20,440 nt of DNA from a virus, in IMG/VR virus record IMGVR_UViG_3300025626_000170, positions 1 through 20,440 of that record; one strand, written 5' to 3'. Under the pieces are notes generated by a model that did no database searches, was not told the origin of the DNA, and saw only the letters and a program-made list of their open reading frames with translations. Position 1 is the first letter of the stretch, and each line of letters opens with the position of its first letter. Shown here piece after piece: positions 11,503 to 12,000 of this stretch. Both the position numbers and the translations under genes were made by a program.

Positions 11503-11587
11503 GGAGAAGTGGCAGAGTGGTCGAATGCACTTGACTTGAAATCAAGCGTACTGCAAGGTACCGGGGGTTCGAATCCCTCCTTCTCCG
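11503..11587 (+). tRNA. tRNA-Ser (anticodon TGA)
   Basis: The acceptor stem GGAGAAG pairs with CTTCTCC (11580-11586), with G as discriminator and no encoded CCA. The anticodon arm is TTGA-CTTGAAA-TCAA, giving anticodon TGA, which reads UCA codons. A long variable arm typical of tRNA-Ser follows. The T-arm is GGGGG-TTCGAAT-CCCTC. The last 22 bases of the gene plus one C recur at 11978-12000 beyond the HNH gene. Confidence 0.95.
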
Positions 11588-11588
11588 C
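11566..11588 (+). repeat. 23-bp direct repeat, copy 1 (3' end of tRNA-Ser)
   Basis: The 23 bases from GGTTCGAATCCC through TTCTCCGC cover the T-loop, the 3' half of the T-stem and the acceptor 3' strand of tRNA-Ser. An exact copy sits at 11978-12000, 412 bases later. Confidence 0.97.
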
Positions 11589-11639
11589 TCATTTTTCTTT
11601 AAAAAGTTTCTCCGGTAGTAAATTACACCACTGCATATA

Positions 11640-11649
11640 GATATATAAT
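11640..11649 (+). promoter_or_regulatory. Late-type promoter box GATATATAAT before the HNH gene
   Basis: GATATATAAT ends only two bases before the HNH ATG. If it acts as a -10 box, transcription would begin at or just after the start codon, so the mRNA would be leaderless or nearly so. Confidence 0.5.
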
Positions 11650-11651
11650 AT

Positions 11652-11978
11652 ATGAAAAAGAAAACGATTAAAGAGAATAGAGAACATTTTGGAAATTGGG
11701 CTAAGAAAAATTTAACTAAACCTAATGAAGAAGTGTTTTGCGAAGGTGCAACTATTGCAAGGCATCATGTGAAAAAGAAAATCCTGCAACAGGGTTTAAT
11801 TGAACATAAGTGTAACATCTGTGGAACAGATCCAATATGGCAAGGAAAACCAATGCCTCTCATATTAGATCATATCAATGGTGTTAATAATGACAATAGA
11901 TTAGAAAACCTTCAATTTGTATGTAGTAATTGTGATTCACAGTTACCAACATATAAAGCAAGAAATATTAAGAAGTAG
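11652..11978 (+). CDS. HNH homing endonuclease-like protein
   Basis: The 108-residue protein carries a zinc-binding CNIC (C54, C57), the HNH core LILDHINGVNNDNRLENLQF (D73-H74) and a second CSNC (C91, C94). This is the standard layout of small phage HNH endonucleases, which nick or cut DNA at specific sites and often move by homing. The residue after the last Cys pair is Asp where many relatives have His (CxNCHxQ), so the final motif is CDSQ rather than CHSQ; whether cleavage is affected is unknown. The TAG stop shares its last G with the first base of the second tRNA-Ser repeat. The N-terminal 50 residues are basic and probably contact DNA. Confidence 0.9.
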   Translation: MKKKTIKENREHFGNWAKKNLTKPNEEVFCEGATIARHHVKKKILQQGLIEHKCNICGTDPIWQGKPMPLILDHINGVNNDNRLENLQFVCSNCDSQLPTYKARNIKK

Positions 11979-12000
11979 GTTCGAATCCCTCCTTCTCCGC
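11978..12000 (+). repeat. 23-bp direct repeat, copy 2 (isolated tRNA-Ser 3' end)
   Basis: Exact copy of 11566-11588, starting at the last base of the HNH stop codon. There is no acceptor 5' strand, D-arm or anticodon arm before it, so it cannot form a tRNA by itself. Confidence 0.97.

Follow-up and report, generated by a model that had tools for sequence, protein, structure and literature searches.

How a single endonuclease gene can come to lie against a tRNA gene while leaving the tRNA whole was the question raised by a 20,440-nucleotide stretch of DNA, referred to below as the window, in which an HNH gene is flanked by two copies of a tRNA-Ser 3' end. The window is a fragment of a tailed phage, with genes for a terminase and a tail sheath and a sigma-like gene at 15482-16087. 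The locus consists of the following parts.

11503-11588, + strand: intact tRNA-Ser(TGA) (ARAGORN), equal to the tRNA of the empty-site relative L088 except for 4 nt in the anticodon stem
11530-11546, + strand: anticodon stem-loop CTTGA-CTTGAAA-TCAAG, the proposed recognition and immunity site, with pairs 29:41 and 31:39 flipped relative to L088
11566-11588, + strand: first copy of the 23-bp repeat, by sequence identity the 3' end of the intact tRNA
11589-11651, + strand: element leader with a degenerate hairpin (CCGGTAGTAAATTACACC) and a promoter-like box (TAGATATATAATA), common to the leaders of L126 and L128
11652-11978, + strand: HNH endonuclease of 108 aa with its core C54-x2-C57 / LDHING / NDNRLENL / C91-x2-C94 intact (ORF, domain matches, conservation and structure model)
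11978-12000, + strand: orphan 23-bp tRNA-Ser tail, the remnant of the resident tRNA 3' end, running into the resident flank (empty-site comparison)
12001-12057, + strand: resident downstream flank, directly abutting tRNA-Ser in the empty L088 (empty-site comparison)

The 412-bp unit and its empty site

The 23-bp repeat GGTTCGAATCCCTCCTTCTCCGC occurs as two exact copies spaced 412 bp apart, with no further copy in the window at up to 3 mismatches; none was expected by chance (0 in 100 shuffles). ARAGORN called the intact tRNA but no tRNA at 11978, and the HNH reading frame ends in a TAG codon whose G is the first base of the second copy. Coordinates and tRNA calls thus confirmed the first-pass annotation, which had described an exact copy of the tRNA-Ser 3' end whose first base is also the final one of the HNH stop codon. 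Its statement that the unit lacks an integrase also held, since neither an integrase nor any other ORF of at least 60 aa was found between the repeats on the + strand. Because the unit follows a complete tRNA, splicing would not be needed.

The encoded protein matched PHROG families of HNH endonucleases (best match 4.6e-27) and scored slightly under the cut-off of Pfam HNH_3. Residues C54, C57, H74, N86, C91 and C94 were invariant in 14 relatives, and a structure was predicted with a pLDDT of 90-95 over the core. Foldseek matches of the model to HNH enzymes were weak, none falling below 1e-3, and a sequence search of solved structures with the protein returned nothing useful. The promoter-like box is likely to belong to the mobile element, since the L126 leader has an identical box and the L128 leader a near-identical one. 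Separately, a 46-nt direct repeat with TATAAGTATNAAATA was observed at 10785-10830 and 12007-12052 (76% identical), upstream of the ORFs at 10830 and 12058; these repeats are probably late promoters of the phage.

Relatives of the window were collected via the large tail-region gene upstream. One of them, L088, has the same upstream gene and a tRNA-Ser at the same place but no HNH gene, and its tRNA-Ser runs straight into AAAAATTGAAACAAACC, the flank that starts at 12001 in the window. The upstream flanks are identical at 50 of 50 positions next to the tRNA and about 92% identical farther out, and the downstream flanks share about 96% identity. The empty site predicted in the first-pass annotation was thereby found. 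Since it joins tRNA-Ser to the 12001 flank, the HNH unit is a gain, the 412-bp stretch has been inserted, and positions 11978-12000 are the leftover tail of the resident tRNA. Recombination between the 23-bp repeats, with L088 as an excision product, was considered and rejected, as the anticodon arm of the window would then persist, whereas L088 has the T-A form of other HNH-free relatives. A tRNA-Ser without an HNH gene was also present in L095, L102, L107, L110 and L122, the last of which forms a second occupied/empty pair with L124. Two further candidates, L396 and L052 as empty sites for L009 and L164, respectively, were dropped because the alignments did not hold.

Presence and absence at one site recurred in cultured phages. 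In the Karamviruses KKP_3262 and EnA02, a relative of the HNH gene, annotated as 'hypothetical protein', lies between tRNA-His and tRNA-Ser(TGA); the two tRNA genes are adjacent, with no HNH gene between them, in COW86c, Entb_43, KMB17 and PG7, so that KKP_3262 and Entb_43 form a third pair. In Gordonia phage Sixama an HNH gene overlaps tRNA-Leu, and none is found there in Boopy and Mareelih. As a side observation, Enterobacter phage EnC15 (L454, 480-1280) carries a GIY-YIG-like homing endonuclease at the junction occupied by the HNH gene in KKP_3262; two unrelated nuclease families are thus found at one target.

An HNH family tied to tRNA-Ser and the split tRNAs around it

Two scans of viral contigs yielded about 120 HNH loci. 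Among the closer relatives an intact tRNA mostly lies at, or overlaps, the HNH stop codon (ARAGORN), at a stop-to-tRNA distance of about -50 to +13 nt, with one outlier at -97. The abutting tRNA was Ser(TGA) in 31 of 52 cases, as opposed to 6 of 521 tRNAs elsewhere in these loci (p=2e-31), and Trp(CCA) in 10/52, as opposed to 8/521 (p=4e-7). tRNA labels clustered on the HNH tree far beyond shuffled labels; as this tree has few columns and many unresolved forks, only its starred branches were used, and isolate row L448, in the wrong frame, was disregarded. These data place the nuclease among phage HNH enzymes of a clade associated with tRNA-Ser(UGA). Together with the empty site, they bear out the proposal of the first-pass annotation that this is a minimal, one-gene selfish unit which keeps the tRNA by bringing or duplicating tRNA sequence: close homologues occur overwhelmingly at tRNA-Ser. 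Homologues at unrelated sites, which that annotation had named as evidence against itself, do exist in part: more distant HNH relatives (about 53% identity) occur at sites without tRNAs. Cellular genomes contributed few relatives (7 loci, 42-63% identity, mostly with partial coverage of the protein).

The window falls in a clade with L124, L126, L128, L001 and L131 (support 98). In five of its six members tRNA-Ser lies upstream of the HNH gene (layout U), whereas in most other relatives it lies downstream (layout D). In L131, the remaining member, the tRNA follows the HNH gene, and in L001 the HNH gene is followed by a degenerate tRNA-like remnant; both count against the reading favoured below. 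No tRNA is found downstream of the HNH gene in L124, L126 and L128.

Several loci contain remnants of a second, interrupted tRNA-Ser. In L003, L133, L134 and L160, the HNH gene and an intact tRNA-Ser lie between the 5' half and the 3' tail of a different tRNA-Ser. The acceptor stems of these remnants (GGAAGCG/CGCTTCC, GGAAGTG/CACTTCC, GGAAACG/CGTTTCC and GGAAGAG/CTTTTCC) pair at 7/7 positions, with one G-T in L160, and are unlike those of the intact tRNAs. A 5' half alone was found in L009-L011, L152 and L161, and in L009 the probable HNH start codon lies inside the remnant. With L009-L011 counted once, the left break falls at nt 23-29, just 5' of the anticodon stem, in all seven loci. Profile-search E-values of the 5' halves were 0.0002-0.06 for some and 0.5-0.6 for others, so single cases rest also on stem pairing and position.

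Other features of these loci were recorded in passing. The HNH gene of L013 (4962-5249), next to an intact tRNA-Ser, has an in-frame stop in the zinc-finger region and is a decaying copy. Odd D-arms occur in several HNH-linked tRNA-Ser genes (L005, L133, L138, L148, L162 and others), which ARAGORN sometimes missed, and often coincide with an HNH reading frame overlapping the 5' part of the tRNA. Directly before the HNH gene of L003, L007, L152, L160, L172, L177, L179 and others, a short hairpin is followed a few bases on by TATAAATA, a module that may control late expression of the nuclease.

The anticodon stem and the proposed route of insertion

Of the 86 positions of the tRNA gene, 4 distinguish the window from L088; all 4 lie in the anticodon stem, the stem-loop of L088 being CTAGT-CTTGAAA-ACTAG. 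Two base pairs are swapped from L088 to the window, 29:41 from A-T to T-A and 31:39 from T-A to A-T. The same 31:39 swap separates L124 from L122, although that tRNA differs elsewhere too. Among HNH-linked tRNA-Ser genes, pair 31:39, which adjoins the anticodon loop, was T-A in 11 of 33, A-T in 16 and C-G in 5. T-A was present in 55 of 65 unlinked genes, a set made up of tRNA-Ser outside the stem-selected samples (p=6e-7), and in 87/100 of a pattern sample, for which phage tRNA-Ser(TGA)-like genes had been collected with a neutral pattern and deduplicated (p=4e-9, linked against pattern sample). The contrast between linked and unlinked genes persisted in tRNA-rich surroundings (p=1e-5) and when genes were clustered at 80% identity over the remainder of the tRNA (p=1e-4), all of these statistics being counts of genes and not of independent events. 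Pair 29:41 was likewise shifted in HNH-linked genes. When A-T and T-A pattern samples were compared instead, adjacent HNH genes were found for 8/119 and 1/120, respectively, a weak excess in which two of the eight are apparently the same sequence; the comparison that starts from HNH-linked tRNAs is the stronger one. The association was looked for in tRNA-Trp beside HNH genes and was not found there. A related HNH group abutting tRNA-Trp(CCA) was observed in L030, L032, L043, L060, L079 and L197, with no change in the anticodon stem.

This shift would fit a carried tRNA that travels with the HNH gene. Selection of the stem for escape from the enzyme is the other reading; it is favoured, without proof, by the fact that the swaps preserve pairing, and the altered stem may therefore confer target-site immunity. 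Two findings count against this: 11 of 33 linked tRNAs, including that of clade member L126, retain the common T-A pair, and HNH-free Karamviruses, Entb_43 among them, carry the A-T form too. The first-pass annotation had placed the target in the T-arm/acceptor part. That assignment was not upheld, as the altered stems and the left breaks 5' of the anticodon stem point to the anticodon arm instead.

The reading preferred here, at a probability of roughly 0.68, is that a free-standing HNH homing unit inserted in a phage tRNA-Ser(UGA) gene and kept the tRNA by a proposed cut-and-copy process. The nuclease would cut tRNA-Ser genes that have no HNH gene, probably at the anticodon arm. Repair would then copy in the leader, the HNH gene and tRNA sequence, such that the resident 5' part gains an intact 3' part and the displaced resident 3' end stays behind as the orphan tail at 11978-12000. 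In layout U, homologous recombination inside the tRNA probably formed the left junction, because the tRNA 5' part and its flank are resident, and an end-joining step that left the tail probably formed the right one; layout D would follow the mirrored order, with the HNH gene and then a complete spare tRNA-Ser, and the broken resident tRNA left as two halves. The swapped anticodon-stem pairs of the carried tRNA would abolish the cut site while leaving the tRNA functional. The window tRNA is accordingly pictured as probably a hybrid, its 5' part resident and its anticodon arm, perhaps also its 3' part, from the incoming element. As the intact tRNA and L088 both match the 23-bp tail exactly, a 3' end that was brought in and one that was duplicated would look the same. 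Two further points count against the preferred reading: the tail starts in the T-arm, about 20 nt past the proposed cut, and no donor emerged for the element in the window. When viral contigs were searched for exact matches to the anticodon-to-variable-arm sequence of the window, no further copy turned up.

The order of parts in most relatives, where a complete tRNA-Ser rather than a tail follows the HNH gene and starts within about 50 nt of its stop, raises another explanation, in part anticipated by the first-pass annotation: a unit of HNH gene and downstream tRNA may have settled beside an existing tRNA-Ser, and this second tRNA, once complete at 11978, may have decayed to 23 bp. The downstream layout of L131 and the degenerate sequence in L001 agree with this. 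Decay is nevertheless unlikely, as the tail is preserved at 100% and runs without any gap into the empty-site flank, the missing 63 nt have left no trace, one clean deletion ending at the stop codon would be required, and three other clade members have nothing of the kind downstream.

The starting point of the tail also bears on a cut of the kind made by SegB in the T-arm, common to all tRNAs, after which repair would have duplicated the 23 bp downstream of the break. Within GGTTCGAATC, with which the tail opens, lies the complement of the SegB motif RAWTSGAAC (PMC13096335). A T-arm cutter should be blind to isotype, as SegB is, whereas this HNH clade is isotype-specific, and the left breaks in relatives precede the anticodon stem; such a cut is considered decidedly improbable. 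Drift of an ordinary free-standing HNH gene to a place beside a tRNA, with a repeat from unrelated recombination between tRNA sequences, could draw on the facts that phage tRNA clusters recombine and hold many small ORFs and that distant HNH homologues occur away from tRNAs. It is only poorly compatible with the empty sites, the isotype specificity, the tRNAs found split in several lineages and the altered stems of HNH-linked genes, and has very little probability.

Insertion of a tRNA-preserving homing unit, the preferred reading, can be extended to the family. Phage HNH enzymes of this type may recognise the anticodon arm of tRNA-Ser(UGA), break the gene and replace it with a carried, stem-recoded tRNA, functional as RNA and immune as DNA, while sister clades do likewise at other tRNAs, e.g., tRNA-Trp. 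This extension is tentative, with somewhat less than an even chance of being correct. Homing genes of the free-standing kind are usually neighbours of an important gene and do not interrupt it; the one-gene element described here seems to invade an RNA gene by bringing a replacement with it, in two layouts that mirror each other. As the target RNA has a known fold, immunity could be attained through compensatory base-pair swaps that spare RNA function, and would be visible in the sequence and easy to test. Such a process would account for split tRNA-Ser remnants and for the unusual anticodon stem of tRNA-Ser in some phages.

Comparison with known systems

Integrases of islands and prophages that target tRNA genes restore the tRNA 3' end, leave a short direct repeat and need an integrase and att sites. 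The unit in the window resembles these elements in its short direct repeat and restored tRNA but contains no integrase ORF.

Among free-standing homing endonucleases, SegB of T4/T6 is located with tRNA genes and has its cleavage sites within them (PMC13096335; Brok-Volchanskaya et al., 2008). SegB is, however, a GIY-YIG enzyme, whereas the window enzyme is HNH only; it does not favour any isotype, its motif corresponds to the T-arm that tRNAs share, and it is not described as carrying a replacement tRNA. The protein of the window has the HNH domain with conserved metal/zinc residues that characterises the free-standing phage HNH class (T4 mob and T5 F-Tfl type). The tRNA region of T5 is reported to encode three HNH endonucleases, F-TflI, F-TflII and F-TflIV (hegA) (Akulenko et al., 2004, cited in PMC3326045). 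These are likewise small, site-specific HNH enzymes from a phage tRNA region, and F-TflIV, the T5 homologue of the window HNH, is 38% identical to it. In contrast to the window gene, hegA encodes a longer protein, starts 24 nt after tRNA-Ile and abuts no downstream tRNA, and no duplicated tRNA end is annotated there. None of the open-licence titles and abstracts examined on homing endonucleases and tRNA described HNH units with replacement tRNAs.

The combination of an endonuclease gene with a replacement 3' end that completes the interrupted gene is known from the mobile ORFs (mORFs) in atp6 of Allomyces and atp6, atp9, cox2 and nad3 of Glomus (PMC3630166). As in these, the window has an endonuclease and a duplicated gene end at an interrupted gene, with the native end flanking the endonuclease gene. 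The mORFs differ in residing in protein genes of fungal mitochondria and in encoding LAGLIDADG or GIY-YIG enzymes, so that enzyme and host are unrelated. Overall, the unit fits a free-standing phage homing endonuclease, related to F-TflIV, whose way of restoring the invaded gene has its precedent in the mORFs of fungal mitochondria.
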